Part shown: positions 2,716-26,417 of the stretch, one piece after another
Layout: each line of letters starts with the position of its first letter
Position numbering within the stretch: the stretch's first letter is position 1
Origin: an uncultured Anaerolineae bacterium
GTDB taxonomy: Bacteria; Chloroflexota; Anaerolineae; JACIWP01
NCBI GenBank assembly: GCA_938049385.1
Contig: CALIBQ010000069.1
Span: 1-51,980, forward strand
Reading direction: 5' to 3'
DNA: 51,980 bases
The notes under the pieces: generated by a model
What the model was told of the DNA's origin: nothing
The model's database searches: none
What the model saw: the letters and a program-made list of their open reading frames with translations, nothing else
Translations under genes and position numbers: made by a program

Positions 2716-4437
2716 ATGCGCAGTTCCGAGAAAGCATCCGATACACCTATCCGGCCGGCCAAACCGCGCCGCACTGTGCAGGCCCGCTTCCCCGACGGCC
2801 GCATCTTCCAGGGACCCATTAGCACGCCGGTCGGGGCGTTCATCCGCGCCGCCGTGCCGGCCGAAGAGGTACCGGTCATGGCCGCCATCGTCAACGGCAA
2901 ACTGCGCGAGCTTTCCCATACCCTCTCCTGGGATTCCACCATCCAGCCCCTTTCCATGCAGACCAGCGACGGCATGCGCATTTTCCAGCGCTCCCTGACC
3001 TTCGTCCTGGTCGCCGCCGCGCACGAGCTGTTCCCTGAGGCCACCATTGTGGTGGACCACTCCATCCCCACCGGCGGCTTTTTCTGCGAGGTCGCCGGCC
3101 GGCCGCTGTTTTCCACCGACGAATTGACTCAGCTCGAAGGGCGCATGCGCGAGATTGTCCAGGCGGATGAACCCATCCGCAAGCATGTCGTCCCCATTTC
3201 CAAGGCGGTGGACATTTTCCAATGGCAGGGCTACACCGATAAGGTGCGCCTGCTCCAGGGATACGCCGGCGAGCGCCAGAACATTTCCATCTACTCGCTT
3301 CGCGACGTGTATGACTACTTCTACGGCTACATGGCCCCTTCCACCGGCCAACTGCATCCCTTTGCCCTGCGGCCGGCGGAGGGCGGGTTCCTGCTCCTCT
3401 TCCCCACCCGGCACCGCCCGCGGGAGCTGACCGAGCCGGCCAGCGCGTCCCGGCTCTCCGCCGTGTTCCGTGAGCACCTGGACTGGATGCGCATCATGGA
3501 TATTGATGATGTGGCGTCGTTGAACGATGCGGCCCGAGCGGGCAGACTGCGGGAAATCATCCTGGTGGCCGAGGCCCTGCATGAGAAACGCATCGCCGAG
3601 ATCGCGGGGCAGATCGCACAGCGCCGGCCGCGCCTGGTGCTCATCGCCGGCCCCTCTTCATCAGGCAAGACCACCTTCATCAAGCGCCTGGCCATCCAGC
3701 TCTTGGCCGCCGGCGTGCGCCCGGTCTCCCTGGGCTTGGATGACTATTTCTTGGATCGGGAGCAGACGCCGCGCGATGAGAAAGGGGAGTACGATTTCGA
3801 GGCGTTGGAAGCGGTGGACCTGGCGCTCTTCAACCGCCAGCTCCTGGAGCTGTTCGCCGGCGAGGAGGTGCTCACGCCGCGCTACAACTTTCATACCGGC
3901 CGGCGGGAGCCGGGCCGGCGCCTGCGCATCACGCCGGACCACATTGTCCTGGTGGAAGGCATCCACGGGCTGAACCCCCGGCTGGTGCCCCAAATACCGC
4001 CCGAGCAGGTCTTCCGCATCTACGTTTCGGCGCTGACCCAGCTCAACCTGGACTGCCACAACCGCATCCCCACCACCGACACCCGGCTCATCCGGCGCAT
4101 CGTGCGCGACGCCCAGTTTCGCGGCTACAACGCCCAGCAGACCATCGCCGGCTGGGAAAAGGTGCGGCGAGGCGAGCGGCTGTACATTTATCCCTATCAG
4201 GAACATGCCGATGTAATGTTCAACTCCGCCCTGCTGTATGAGCTGGCGGTGCTCAAGCCCTTTGTGGAGCCGCTCCTGCGCCAGATCGCCCCATCCCACA
4301 CCATAGAATACATCGAGGCATCGCGCCTGCTGGCCTTTTTGAGCTGGTTCGAGGGTGCCGGCCCCGAGCTGGTGCCCGAAACCTCTATCCTGCGGGAGTT
4401 TATCGGCGGTTCCGCGCTCGCCGATGTGAGTTACTGA
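2716..4437 (+). CDS. TGS-domain nucleoside (uridine) kinase-like protein
   Basis: 573-residue cytoplasmic protein. The N-terminal third (about 18-215) resembles the TGS plus editing-like part of threonyl-tRNA synthetase, including a VDHSIPTGGFF segment. The C-terminal part is a uridine kinase/phosphoribulokinase P-loop kinase. The Walker A motif GPSSSGKT is at 312-319, followed by LGLDDYFLDRE and LVEGIHGLNP, the lid and substrate segments of uridine kinases. Such ThrRS-kinase hybrids are widespread in Firmicutes, Chloroflexi and Thermotogae, and their physiological substrate is not well settled. A TTG at 2662 is open in frame, but the ATG at 2716 has GGAG 9 nt ahead. The peroxiredoxin gene follows after 37 bp and is probably co-transcribed. 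Confidence 0.85.
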   Translation: MRSSEKASDTPIRPAKPRRTVQARFPDGRIFQGPISTPVGAFIRAAVPAEEVPVMAAIVNGKLRELSHTLSWDSTIQPLSMQTSDGMRIFQRSLTFVLVAAAHELFPEATIVVDHSIPTGGFFCEVAGRPLFSTDELTQLEGRMREIVQADEPIRKHVVPISKAVDIFQWQGYTDKVRLLQGYAGERQNISIYSLRDVYDYFYGYMAPSTGQLHPFALRPAEGGFLLLFPTRHRPRELTEPASASRLSAVFREHLDWMRIMDIDDVASLNDAARAGRLREIILVAEALHEKRIAEIAGQIAQRRPRLVLIAGPSSSGKTTFIKRLAIQLLAAGVRPVSLGLDDYFLDREQTPRDEKGEYDFEALEAVDLALFNRQLLELFAGEEVLTPRYNFHTGRREPGRRLRITPDHIVLVEGIHGLNPRLVPQIPPEQVFRIYVSALTQLNLDCHNRIPTTDTRLIRRIVRDAQFRGYNAQQTIAGWEKVRRGERLYIYPYQEHADVMFNSALLYELAVLKPFVEPLLRQIAPSHTIEYIEASRLLAFLSWFEGAGPELVPETSILREFIGGSALADVSY

Positions 4438-17984: not shown

Positions 17985-18851
17985 CTACGGATGCGCCTGC
18001 CGCCAGGCCGTCGAATCCGGGAAGAAAATGGGCTGACCAAACTCCTCTTTCCCGAAGGATGCGATAAGCTCTTGTGCCGGCAGAGACGTGATCCACTCGC
18101 TGAACGCTTTCGCGCCGCCATAGCATATCTGGGGATAGCGCTGAGGATTGACCGCGATAACCGAATACGGATTCCGAAGGCATTGATCCCCTTCCAGCAT
18201 GATTTCCAGCGCGAGGCCCTTGGCCTGCATGGTGAGAAAGGTGGCGCGATCGGAAAGGGTATAGGCCCTCATCTCCGCGGCAGTGGTCAGGGTCTGCCCC
18301 ATCCCCTGCCCGATGGAGCGGTACCACTGCCCTGCCGGCGCGATGCCGGCGGCCTGCCAGATTTCTTTCTCTTTGACGTGCGTCCCCGATTCATCCCCGC
18401 GCGACACAAACGCCGCCTGGGATCCCGCAATGCGAAGAAAAGCCTCCGGCGCTGAACCCAGGCCGCGCACGCCGGCCGGGTCGTCGGCCGGCCCCACGAT
18501 GACAAAATCATTGGACATCACCGGCTGGCGGTCCACGCCGTAACCGGCGGCCACAAACGCATCTTCCAACGCCGGCGCATGCACCAGCAGGACATCCGCA
18601 TTGCCATCCTCGCCCAGCTTCAGTGCCTGACCCGTTCCTACCGCCACCACTTTCACCGCTATGCCGGTCTCGCGTTCAAAGTAGGGCAGGAGATAATCCA
18701 GCAGGCCGGAGTTCTCGGTACTGGTCGTGGTCGCCAGGATGATGGAGGAGCAGGATGGACTGCTCACCGGCCGCACGGACTGCGAGCCGCAGGCCGTCAG
18801 CACAGCAGTGAGCAGAAGCATTAGGCTGACAAAAGAGCGTCGAATCATCAT
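17985..18851 (-). CDS. tupA: Tungstate ABC transporter substrate-binding lipoprotein
   Basis: 288-residue exported oxyanion-binding protein. A signal peptide with the lipobox LTAC (cysteine near residue 21) anchors it as a lipoprotein. The mature protein opens with ILATTTSTENSGLLDYLLP, followed by VGTGQALKLGEDGNADVLLV and FVSRGDESGTHVKEKEIW. These are the conserved ligand loops of TupA rather than of ModA or PstS. The ATG at 18851 has GGAG 7 nt ahead and is preferred over 18890. It is the last gene of the tupBCA operon, under the cofactor riboswitch at 20433-20551. Specificity for tungstate over molybdate is inferred from family motifs. Confidence 0.88.
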   Translation of the reverse strand: MMIRRSFVSLMLLLTAVLTACGSQSVRPVSSPSCSSIILATTTSTENSGLLDYLLPYFERETGIAVKVVAVGTGQALKLGEDGNADVLLVHAPALEDAFVAAGYGVDRQPVMSNDFVIVGPADDPAGVRGLGSAPEAFLRIAGSQAAFVSRGDESGTHVKEKEIWQAAGIAPAGQWYRSIGQGMGQTLTTAAEMRAYTLSDRATFLTMQAKGLALEIMLEGDQCLRNPYSVIAVNPQRYPQICYGGAKAFSEWITSLPAQELIASFGKEEFGQPIFFPDSTAWRQAHP

Positions 18852-18886
18852 GACGCATCTCCGATGAGGATGTCGAAAGGGGAGGC

Positions 18887-19618
18887 TCACCAGACCAGTT
18901 CGCCGTTGAGGAAGGCGCGGGTGCGAGCATCCTGGGGCGCGGAGAAAAACTGCTCCGCCGGAGCGATCTCCACCACCTGCCCGTTCAGCAGGAACGCTAC
19001 CCGATGTCCCAGCCGGCGGGCCTGAAACACGTTATGCGTCACCAGCACAATTGTGGTGCCCTGCTCACGATTCAGGTCCCGGATTAACCCTTCGATGAGA
19101 CTGACGTTGTACGGGTCAAGATTGGCCGTCGGTTCGTCCAGGAGGAGCACCGCCGGCTGAAACGCCAGCGCGCGGGCCAGCGCGACGCGCTGGCGTTCGC
19201 CGCCGGAGAGCGTGGGCGCATGATTGCCGGCCAGCGCTGCCAGACCAAGCCGATCTAGCAAGCGCGTCATCGCACCGTTCTGGGCTGGCATGCCCCGCAC
19301 CTTCCGGCCGTAGGCGACGTTGGTCAGCACGGAGCGGTTCAGCAGAGCCGGCTGTTGGAACACCATCGTGACCTGCCGGCGCAGATGCAGACTCACCGGC
19401 GTGCCCGGCAGTATGGAATGCCCCATGAACTCGATTTCTCCCGATGTGGCCGGCTCCAGAAAGTTCAGCAGGCGCAGTAGCGTGCTTTTCCCAGAACCGT
19501 TCGGGCCGACCACCACCAGTATTTCGCCGCGGTAAATGTCCAGATGGGAGATATCCAGCACAACCCTTTGCTGGTATTCCTTGCGCAGGTTGCGCAGTCG
19601 GAAAATAGCCTCGCTCAT
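18887..19618 (-). CDS. tupC: Tungstate ABC transporter ATP-binding protein
   Basis: 243-residue ABC ATPase that drives oxyanion uptake. Walker A is GPNGSGKST, the Q-loop is MVFQQPALL, the signature is LSGGERQRVALARAL, Walker B is AVLLLDEPTANLD, and the switch histidine is in VLVTHNVFQA. No regulatory C-terminal domain of the ModC TOBE type is present. Its ATG overlaps the tupB stop (ATGA), and tupA begins 35 bp after its stop. Confidence 0.9.
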   Translation of the reverse strand: MSEAIFRLRNLRKEYQQRVVLDISHLDIYRGEILVVVGPNGSGKSTLLRLLNFLEPATSGEIEFMGHSILPGTPVSLHLRRQVTMVFQQPALLNRSVLTNVAYGRKVRGMPAQNGAMTRLLDRLGLAALAGNHAPTLSGGERQRVALARALAFQPAVLLLDEPTANLDPYNVSLIEGLIRDLNREQGTTIVLVTHNVFQARRLGHRVAFLLNGQVVEIAPAEQFFSAPQDARTRAFLNGELVW

Positions 19619-20331
19619 AATGGCCGGATAAACCTTTCCTCAAGCTGGAGGATCACGAAGTTGATGACCAGCGCCATGGCCAACAGAATGATGCCCAGAG
19701 CAATAGCCATGTCGAAATTCCCCTTGCTGGTCTCCAGTACAATAGCCGTGGTGAGCACCCGGGTCTCGCCGGCAATATTGCCGCCCACTATCATGACCGC
19801 GCCGACCTCGGCCAGCGCCCTGCCCAGGCCGGCGGCCACCGCCGCGGCGATGCCGGCGCGCGCCTCCACCAGCAGTGTGAGGGTCACCTGCCAAGGAGTG
19901 GCACCCAGCGAGAGAAGCTGTTGTCTTAGCATAGGGTCCACTCCCAGCAGTGCCGCCATGGTAAAGCCGGTGACGATGGGGAAAATGATGAGTGCCTGGG
20001 CGGTGATCATGGCCGCCGGCGTAAACAGCCGGGGGATAATCACAGCGTTGAGCGAACCAAGCGGACCACTGCGCGAGAGAAGCACATAGACGAACAAGCC
20101 GACCACCACCGGCGGCAGGCCCATTCCAGTGTAGAGCATCAACCGCAGGAAAGACCATCCTGGGAAGCGCCGCAGGCCGAGGGCCGCGCCCAGCGGCACG
20201 CCGAGCAGGACGCTGATGGCCAGCGCCGTACCGGAGACACGCAGGGAAAGGCCGGCTATCTCCAGCACCTGCGGGTTGAAGCTTATAATGAGGTAAACGG
20301 CCTGACGCAGGCCCTGCAGGAGCGTTTCGAT
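19615..20331 (-). CDS. tupB: Tungstate ABC transporter permease, probable ATC start
   Basis: Inner-membrane permease with about five or six hydrophobic helices and the ABC-contact loop LGATPWQVTLTLLVEAR. TupB proteins normally begin with a short LLxGLxxAxxLI segment. That segment (LLQGLRQAVYLIISFNP) lies upstream of the first ordinary start (GTG at 20268) and has no ATG, GTG or TTG. AGGAGGAGG followed by CCACC places the ATC at 20331-20329 at ideal spacing, so I take ATC as the start (238 residues). If this is wrong, the protein starts at 20268 (217 residues) and lacks 21 family residues. It is the first gene after the riboswitch. Confidence 0.75.
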   Translation of the reverse strand: METLLQGLRQAVYLIISFNPQVLEIAGLSLRVSGTALAISVLLGVPLGAALGLRRFPGWSFLRLMLYTGMGLPPVVVGLFVYVLLSRSGPLGSLNAVIIPRLFTPAAMITAQALIIFPIVTGFTMAALLGVDPMLRQQLLSLGATPWQVTLTLLVEARAGIAAAVAAGLGRALAEVGAVMIVGGNIAGETRVLTTAIVLETSKGNFDMAIALGIILLAMALVINFVILQLEERFIRPL

Positions 20332-20376
20332 GGTGGCCTCCTCCTGTGCTGGCTGGCCGGCGGCATTCCCGCCGGC

Positions 20377-20412
20377 AAAAAGAAACCGACGTCTTCGCAG
20401 AGGAGACGCCGG
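20377..20412 (-). terminator. Riboswitch-controlled intrinsic terminator
   Basis: Minus strand CCGGCGTCT (20412-20404) pairs with AGACGTCGG (20394-20386) over 9 bp (one G-U) with a 9-nt loop, then TTTCTTTTT (20385-20377). Its 5' arm is shared with the antiterminator, as set out under the riboswitch. Confidence 0.8.
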
Positions 20413-20432
20413 CGGATATCAGCTCGCAAGGC

Positions 20433-20551
20433 GTTCTCCTTTCCAAATACGGGGGGCGAAGACGTTTCCATCTTCACCTTTGACCTCGCCGTTGAGGTAC
20501 TGCGGTTGCAGTCCATAGCCCGGCGGCCGTAGGCCCTGCAACTCGGAGAAC
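20433..20551 (-). ncRNA. Molybdenum/tungsten cofactor (Moco/Tuco) riboswitch
   Basis: 119-nt aptamer. P1 is GTTCTCC (20551-20545) with GGAGAAC (20439-20433). A 10-bp stem (20478-20469 with 20464-20455) is capped by a GAAA tetraloop (20468-20465). CCTACG (20533-20528) and TATGG (20517-20513) look like its tetraloop receptor. The 3' part CCCGTATTTGGAAAGG is nearly the same as the E. coli moaA leader Moco RNA, from memory. Expression platform: GGAGAACGCC (20439-20430) can instead pair with GGCGTCTCC (20410-20402) as an antiterminator; that blocks the terminator at 20412-20377. Bound cofactor stabilises P1, frees the terminator and turns tupBCA off. Confidence 0.85.
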
Positions 20552-20575
20552 GTGCAGTTTCTCACATTTGCATCC

Positions 20576-20604
20576 AATATAAGGGAAAATCCTGATATTG
20601 TCAA
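20576..20604 (-). promoter_or_regulatory. Promoter of the riboswitch-tupBCA operon
   Basis: Minus strand TTGACA (20604-20599), 17-bp spacer, TATATT (20581-20576). The transcript would start near 20569, about 18 nt before the aptamer P1 stem. Confidence 0.8.
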
Positions 20605-25070: not shown

Positions 25071-26417
25071 ATGGTGAAAGAACTGTACGACCCACACATG
25101 TTCAACTACATGTGGGAAAGCCTCGACCAGGACCACTTTGTGGTGGGCACGTATTACATCGAGGACAGCCGGCCGGATTGGGACTTCATTGACCACCTCG
25201 GCCAGGTCCAGCGCCTCGCCCTGGAAGGCTCCACTGCCACCTGGATGGACATCAAAGAAGAAACCCCAGAGGTGCGCGAACGCCTGTGCAGTAAGGTGCT
25301 CGGGTACTACGAAATCCCCTCCCCGCCGGGGACGCGCCGCGCCGTGATCCAGCTCGCCTTCCCCACCGCCGCCTGGGACGTGCACGTCAACGTGCCGATG
25401 ATGCTCCTTTCCATTTCCGGCAATATTTTCGCCTTCTGCGACAAGGTGCGCCTGCTGGACGTGTTCATCCCCAAGGCCATCGCCCAAAAGTTCCAGGGTC
25501 CTAAGTTCGGCATCGAGGGACTGCGCGAGAAGCTGGGGGTGTACGGCCGGCCGCTCGTGCTCCAGATCATCAAGCCCAAAATGGGCATGACCCCAGAGGA
25601 AACCGCCAACCAGGTCTACCAGACCGCCCTTGGCGGCGCGGACTTATATAAAGACGACGAGATGTGCAGTGAGCTGGAGAACTGCCCCTTCGAGGCACGC
25701 TTGGAGGCAGTGCTCAAGGCGCTGGAAAAGGCTGAGCGCGAGACCGGCCACAAAACGCTCTACATGGTTAGCATCACCGACGAAGTGGACCGGGTGCACG
25801 AAAAGGCGCGCCGCGCCGTCAAGCTGGGCGCGACCGGTCTGCTCCTCGCTTACCCCGTCGGCCTGTCCACGCTGAAGGTCATCGCCAGTGACCCGGAGAT
25901 CAATGTGCCCATCCTCTGGCATGTCTCGCACATGCTGGGCATGCTCCCGACCATGAGCTACACTGTGCTGGCCAAGCTGGCACGGCTGTGCGGCGCGGAC
26001 ATGATGCTGACGCCGTCCCTCTGGTCCAGCCTGCAGGTCTGCTCGGTGGAAGAGGAACTGCGCACTTCCCAGACCCTGCGGGCGCCGTTCTATCACATCA
26101 AGCGGGCGTGGCCTATGCCGGCCGCCGGCATGTACCCCGGCCTGGCTGAAGTGCTGATCCAGGAGCACGGCATTGACTTCATCGTGCCGGCCGGCGGTGG
26201 TATGCTCGGCCACCCCATGGGCTATAAGGCCGGCGCCATGGCCTGGCGCCAGGCCATCGACGCGGTGCTGGCCGGCATGTCCCTGCAGGAAGCCGCCGAG
26301 AAATATCCAGAATTCCGCGCCGCGGCCGAACTCTGGGGCATCCGCAAGCGCCCGCAGTGCCCTTGGGGCTACCGCAGTCCCGAGTTCCATCCTAAATTTG
26401 CCCCGAAAAATATCTGA
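25071..26417 (+). CDS. RuBisCO-like protein (form IV)
   Basis: 448 residues with the whole RuBisCO large-subunit fold. Aligned by motif to plant RbcL, E60 is E52 (LEGSTATW) and N123 is N118 (SISGNIF). K175/K177 are K168/K170 (IIKPKMG), and the carbamate lysine and metal acids K201/D203/E204 are K194/D196/E197 (GGADLYKDDE). Residues 375-382 keep GGGMLGHP. The HIHRAMH segment has become WHVSHML, the GDHIH segment is GADMML, loop 6 has no K334, and S379 is replaced in PMPAAGMYP. It can therefore make an enolate on a metal but should not fix CO2. Known RLPs are enolases, isomerases or decarboxylases on ketose phosphates. It lies between the TIM-barrel gene and the E1alpha gene; the substrate is unknown. 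Confidence 0.93.
   Translation: MVKELYDPHMFNYMWESLDQDHFVVGTYYIEDSRPDWDFIDHLGQVQRLALEGSTATWMDIKEETPEVRERLCSKVLGYYEIPSPPGTRRAVIQLAFPTAAWDVHVNVPMMLLSISGNIFAFCDKVRLLDVFIPKAIAQKFQGPKFGIEGLREKLGVYGRPLVLQIIKPKMGMTPEETANQVYQTALGGADLYKDDEMCSELENCPFEARLEAVLKALEKAERETGHKTLYMVSITDEVDRVHEKARRAVKLGATGLLLAYPVGLSTLKVIASDPEINVPILWHVSHMLGMLPTMSYTVLAKLARLCGADMMLTPSLWSSLQVCSVEEELRTSQTLRAPFYHIKRAWPMPAAGMYPGLAEVLIQEHGIDFIVPAGGGMLGHPMGYKAGAMAWRQAIDAVLAGMSLQEAAEKYPEFRAAAELWGIRKRPQCPWGYRSPEFHPKFAPKNI

Follow-up and report, generated by a model that had tools for sequence, protein, structure and literature searches.

The tupBCA operon of an uncultured Anaerolineae bacterium, located on the minus strand of contig CALIBQ010000069.1 (the whole analysed stretch of 51,980 nucleotides is referred to as the window), is preceded by an RNA of the Moco riboswitch class which contains the P3 stem. 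Its sequence indicates that it very probably works by transcription termination and switches the operon off when the cofactor is bound. With less certainty, though on balance, we favor the view that two brakes act on this operon, namely the P3-type terminator riboswitch, breaking the rule by which such RNAs serve molybdenum genes only, and a conserved AUC or AUU start codon of tupB, near-exclusive to operons beginning with tupB, which would hold synthesis of the permease low. The riboswitch is a further member of an already known class and the sensor itself is ordinary. The features are collected in Table 1.

Table 1. Features of the tupBCA leader and operon, with positions in the window.
Feature	Position	Strand	Basis
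Sigma-70 promoter: -35 TTGACA (20604-20599), 17-nt spacer, -10 TATATT (20581-20576)	20576..20604	-	11 of 12 matches
Moco riboswitch aptamer (RF01055), P3-containing type	20420..20560	-	Rfam covariance match; helices backed by covariation
Aptamer core, closed by P1	20433..20551	-	folding, alignment, covariation
P2 (20542-20536/20511-20505) with tetraloop-receptor-like bulge CCTACG...TATGG	20505..20542	-	sequence and alignment
P3 hairpin, ACCUC (20498-20494)/GAGGU (20487-20483)	20483..20498	-	refolding, alignment, covariation
P4, 10 bp, GAAA tetraloop	20455..20478	-	Rfam match, folding, covariation
Antiterminator 3' strand GGCGUCUCC, pairing with GGAGA(A)CGCC (20439-20430)	20402..20410	-	duplex energy, folding
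Intrinsic terminator: stem 20413-20385 and U tract UUUCUUUUU (20384-20376)	20376..20413	-	folding, -15.3 kcal/mol
Shine-Dalgarno of tupB, AGGAGGAGG	20337..20345	-	sequence; conserved in congeners
Predicted AUC start codon of tupB	20329..20331	-	aligns with ATG/GTG/TTG of tupA-first operons
tupB, tungstate-type ABC permease	19615..20331	-	NF038017 243.5 bits (cut-off 100); NF041773 (TupB) 159 bits (below cut-off 320)
tupC, ABC ATPase	18887..19618	-	profile search
tupA, substrate-binding protein	17985..18890	-	NF041772 237.7 bits (below cut-off 400); matches solved TupA chains 3lr1 and 5my5

The Moco aptamer

The Rfam model RF01055 (Moco riboswitch, curated cut-off 36 bits) matches the leader over its full length (model positions 1-135 of 135) with 77.6 bits and an E-value of 3.7e-17, which is far over the cut-off and bears out the Moco-type aptamer proposed in an earlier note made from the letters of this DNA. 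Every element named there is found in its place on the minus strand: P1, formed by 20551-20545 with 20439-20433 (GUUCUCC/GGAGAAC), the GAAA-capped 10-bp stem and the receptor-like CCTACG and TATGG. The features of the family (P1, P2, P4 with GNRA tetraloop and receptor, and the conserved junction) are all present, and the junction letters of the class are intact. The Rfam alignment gives the impression of a broken P3, but this stem is misplaced there; refolding yields an intact hairpin of 5 perfect base pairs, displaced by a CAGU insert ahead of it.

Covariation was evaluated by aligning 29 P3-containing relatives from Anaerolineae, the class of the window; 91.3% of the cells in this alignment are paired. 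Compensatory changes, looked for in homologous leaders as the earlier note had suggested, back all five helices: 198 cells are changed on both sides vs 65 +/- 7 in shuffles, none of which reaches as high. The covariation score is 0.538; the shuffles give 0.187 +/- 0.013, and slid structures do not exceed 0.111. The shuffle control leaves relatedness in, and the slid structures retain relatedness, yet fail too. Double changes are seen in 7 of 7 pairs of P2 and 5 of 5 pairs of P3, and 95.5% of the P4 cells are paired. Judged by the cmscan alignment, where P2 and P3 depart from the Rfam consensus, the aptamer might be taken for a degenerate, non-functional copy. This is hardly credible, as the departures come down to a P3 that is shifted yet perfectly paired, three species share a near-identical aptamer and the conserved letters of the junction are intact.

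Promoter, antiterminator and terminator

The aptamer lies, as had been noticed earlier, between a good promoter and tupB. Matches of this quality occur with a mean of 0.0 in shuffles, and the promoter is kept in both congeners. The pairings of the P1 3' strand (20439-20433, extended to 20430) and of 20410-20402, the heart of the terminator 5' arm, are mutually exclusive. The duplex of GGCGUCUCC with the P1 3' strand has an energy of -16.2 kcal/mol, equalled by 0.4% of shuffles, in agreement with the sharing of this P1 strand with an antiterminator that the earlier note described. A simple terminator scanner lists no site here; a nominal loop longer than the 8 nt it allows is the probable cause, and the folding evidence was used instead. 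By folding energies, which leave aside ligand, proteins and kinetics, the full leader without ligand prefers the antiterminator (-81.5 kcal/mol) to P1 plus terminator (-76.9 kcal/mol) by 4.6 kcal/mol, and before the terminator is complete the preference amounts to 7.7 kcal/mol (-71.5 vs -63.8 kcal/mol). The terminator forms when P1 is forced in the folding. The antiterminator being favored without ligand suggests that the default state is ON, and a closed P1, which frees the terminator, would make the ligand-bound state OFF; the folding energies thus support the transcription-off logic suggested before.

We infer the ligand, the switching and the transported ion as follows. Without ligand the P1 3' strand would pair with GGCGUCUCC, no terminator would form and tupBCA would be transcribed. 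The bound cofactor, most likely Moco, would hold P1 closed and release GGCGUCUCC into the terminator hairpin, upon which RNA polymerase would halt ahead of tupB. Plentiful cofactor would then mean less oxyanion import, that is, end-product feedback on the metal supply.

Moco production brings about repression by the Moco RNA of E. coli (PMC2408646). With the E. coli moaA RNA (PMC2408646) the window RNA shares the conserved helices, the GAAA tetraloop and its receptor, P3, the P1 switch strand and the proposed OFF logic; it differs in controlling a tungstate-type importer, in having P3 set back by the CAGU insert, and in its terminator platform, sequestration of the ribosome site being the proposal for the E. 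coli RNA. Transcription termination has been inferred for the latter from RNA-seq (PMC12121620). For many Moco RNAs, that of E. coli moaA included, P1 is believed to mask the ribosome site (PMC2408646), and a weak AUC start would make tupB translation-limited. The leader might accordingly be supposed to set mainly ribosome access, with the terminator-like hairpin being incidental. We regard this as improbable: the tupB Shine-Dalgarno is situated ~90 nt 3' of P1 and outside it, and the partner of P1 is a terminator arm with the U tract directly after.

Termination as the preferred mechanism can also be viewed in related leaders. The two congeners have a near-identical aptamer, promoter and leader, with an identical terminator stem and the Shine-Dalgarno conserved; similarity among these three leaders of the genus is too high for compensatory changes to be read in the terminator itself. 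The exclusive pairing of P1 and terminator recurs with other letters in other families (G244, -16.9; G013, -16.6; G007, -15.5; L170, -16.9 kcal/mol), each duplex being better than 98-99.6% of shuffles. No terminator was found in 3 of the 20 Chloroflexota tup leaders examined. In another locus (L101 of G036) the P1 3' strand lies inside a terminator-like hairpin (GGAGAG...CUCUCC UUUUU) just 3' of the aptamer, the latter being at 3000-3139 (-). This arrangement would have the opposite (ON) logic, if the hairpin is real. Together with the three leaders lacking a terminator, it indicates that the expression platform varies.

The tup operon, P3 and the ligand

The earlier note called the product of the operon a tungstate importer. 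The TupA site residues read from the sequence (TTTS 54-57, H104, R164, T170 and D214) can be set beside those of the reference site (TTTS motif, H59, R118, T124 and D170; PMC5517513), and TupA is 79% identical to its nearest named relative (from an Anaerolineae MAG), which assigns the window to class Anaerolineae of Chloroflexota. The best permease model, NF038017, passes its cut-off, and the scores for the NCBI equivalogs NF041772 and NF041773 stay below theirs; for this reason "TupABC family" is a safe name and "proved tungstate transporter" is not, and we speak of a tungstate-type importer of this family. Compared with TupABC of Eubacterium acidaminophilum and TupA of Desulfovibrio alaskensis (PMC5517513), the gene content and the TTTS, His, Arg, Thr and Asp residues are shared; the window differs by the order tupBCA, the sub-cut-off scores, the AUC start of tupB and by having apparently no other Mo/W importer. 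The affinity of Desulfovibrio TupA is 6 pM for tungstate, but molybdate is bound too, at 6 nM (PMC5517513).

Neither ModA nor WtpA was found in the genome of the window or in its two congeners, and TupBCA is, as far as these genomes can be read, the only recognized Mo/W importer of the genus, which makes the proposed switch a simple end-product feedback. ModA over its cut-off occurs in 0 of 18 genomes with a Moco RNA at tup and in 71 of 138 other TupA genomes of Anaerolineae; the Fisher p of 1e-5 for this contrast is indicative only, the genomes being related and the RNAs being those among the matches listed. ModA is absent as well from a nineteenth genome with a tup-linked RNA (G224, L220). 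The genome encodes 14 AFOR_N, 5 PF02738 (molybdenum hydroxylase domain) and 6 PF00384 proteins. Fourteen proteins of the AFOR_N (aldehyde ferredoxin oxidoreductase) family in 3.4 Mb make up a heavily tungsten-type enzyme set. Since molybdenum-type and tungsten-type enzymes are both encoded, the organism probably uses both metals. Its second Moco RNA, of which the earlier note does not speak, is also of P3 type (G000:C34:3625-3765 (-)) and precedes the moaA start by roughly 100 nt, so that one RNA of the family stands before tupBCA and the other before moaA. The apparent absence of MoeA is probably an assembly gap, as both congeners have MoeA parts at contig ends.

Regulski et al. (2008) split the class into P3-containing (Moco) and P3-lacking (proposed Tuco) RNAs and read tup genes as a sign that tungsten is used (PMC2408646). 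Comparison of the P3 region with Tuco-type variants, which the earlier note had recommended, places the window RNA, by the 2008 rule, in the P3-containing, Moco-type group. Assignment to the Tuco type is ruled out by the presence of P3 (5 bp, covarying), the absence of which defines that type, whereas the target operon and the overall fold are shared with the Tuco-type RNAs found before tup of Firmicutes and some Chloroflexota. The accompanying context rule (MPT/Moco genes only), which is a correlation, does not hold here, the target being a tup operon.

A P3 census was made for 89 RNAs from Anaerolineae among the matches listed, sorted by the P2-P4 linker with 7 hand overrides where the P2 parse was doubtful. 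P3 is present in 44 and lacking in 45 of them. Again among the matches listed, all 7 RNAs preceding mog-moe-moa operons have it, none of the 10 preceding an ECF transporter with a PF09819 protein that resembles an S component does, and it occurs in 12 of 18 tup-linked RNAs of Anaerolineae (6 of 18 lack it).

The simplest interpretation places Tup, in genomes having no other importer, under a general cofactor sensor, and on this reading Moco is the likelier ligand, an assignment we hold with moderate confidence. The earlier note had left the repressor as a tungsten (or molybdenum) cofactor; with P3 present, the molybdenum cofactor has gained and the tungsten cofactor lost in likelihood. A possible but less probable reading is that Tuco or both cofactors are bound, with an unchanged mechanism and the P3 rule failing in this lineage. 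It would agree with the tungstate-type transporter and its conserved site residues, with the 14 AFOR_N proteins, with P3-lacking RNAs on 6 of the 18 tup operons of the class (among the matches listed) and with the fact that both Moco RNAs of the genome are of P3 type, which leaves no P3-lacking sensor for tungsten. However, published data link P3-type RNAs to Moco, the P3-type RNA of E. coli is unresponsive to tungsten (PMC2408646), and P3 is informative in this class, as its distribution over the mog-moe-moa and ECF-linked RNAs (among the matches listed) demonstrates. With Moco remaining the preferred ligand, it should be kept in mind that P3 as a discriminator of Moco and Tuco so far rests on the gene-context correlation of 2008. 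The clade offers a natural test, having P3-type and P3-less RNAs on tup in sister families, in genomes without a recognizable ModA-type importer.

Tup-linked Moco RNAs do not originate from Firmicutes only, being carried by at least nine Chloroflexota families. A P3-type Moco RNA before tupA was seen in a Desulfitobacteriaceae MAG (L219:101-235), a Firmicutes case by which the exception of P3 on tup extends beyond Chloroflexota. Tandem Moco RNAs, the first with and the second without P3, precede wtpABC-moaA at L119:3987-4404 (-) (G087:C88); it is possible that they form a two-input gate for molybdenum and tungsten. At L121:4426-4747 (-) and L147:442-757 (+) both tandem RNAs before wtpABC-moaA lack P3 and adjoin a selenocysteine tRNA gene. 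The P3-lacking RNAs before the ECF-type transporter (L123:578-4226 (+), L114, L125, L063, L067, L139, L149, L154, L156 and L157) accompany a PF09819 S-component-like protein, a double ABC ATPase and a CbiQ-type T component, the substrate perhaps being a Mo/W ion or a pterin.

The start codon of tupB

Between the stop lying 30 codons upstream and codon 21, the reading frame of tupB is free of ATG, GTG and TTG. An ATC codon sits 5 nt after AGGAGGAGG, and tupB apparently begins with this rare AUC start codon. At the aligned start, ATC or ATT is found in 23 of 30 tupB-first operons vs 1 of 46 tupA-first operons (p 2.5e-12, with relatedness left in), the latter using ATG, GTG or TTG. In 10 tupB-first cases an in-frame stop occurs no more than 12 codons upstream, and the six codons that follow hold no canonical start, so the ATC/ATT codon cannot simply be internal. 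For tupC, all of the same 30 operons have a canonical start no more than a few codons away from the aligned position. AUC or AUU starts of tupB behind a strong Shine-Dalgarno were observed at L050, L158, L168, L191, L224, L184, L175, L178, L273, L166 and other loci.

Such a start would probably keep the permease low when tupB is first in the operon. Non-canonical starts are known in infC and pcnB of E. coli and in cvfC1 and ccpN of S. aureus; reporter assays in S. aureus put their output at about one tenth of that from AUG (PMC13009471). With these genes (AUU/AUA; PMC13009471) tupB would share a conserved weak start behind a strong Shine-Dalgarno; it differs from them in encoding a transporter permease, in using mostly AUC, in its spread over several Chloroflexota families and in the link to the tupB-first order. 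No report of a non-canonical tupB start was found in open-licence papers. If the AUC/AUU start is confirmed, a transporter joins the very few bacterial genes known to conserve a weak start codon, and automatic annotation likely truncates TupB.

A tie of the AUC start to the riboswitch itself was rejected: tupB-first operons for which the search gave no Moco RNA (L168, L178 and L184, for example) show AUC or AUU too. A short open reading frame that starts at 20366 and overlaps the beginning of tupB was also discarded, as the congeners do not conserve it. Elsewhere in the window, at 25071-26417 (+), an open reading frame judged from its sequence to be RuBisCO-like (large subunit) is located upstream of genes resembling 2-oxoacid dehydrogenase E1.
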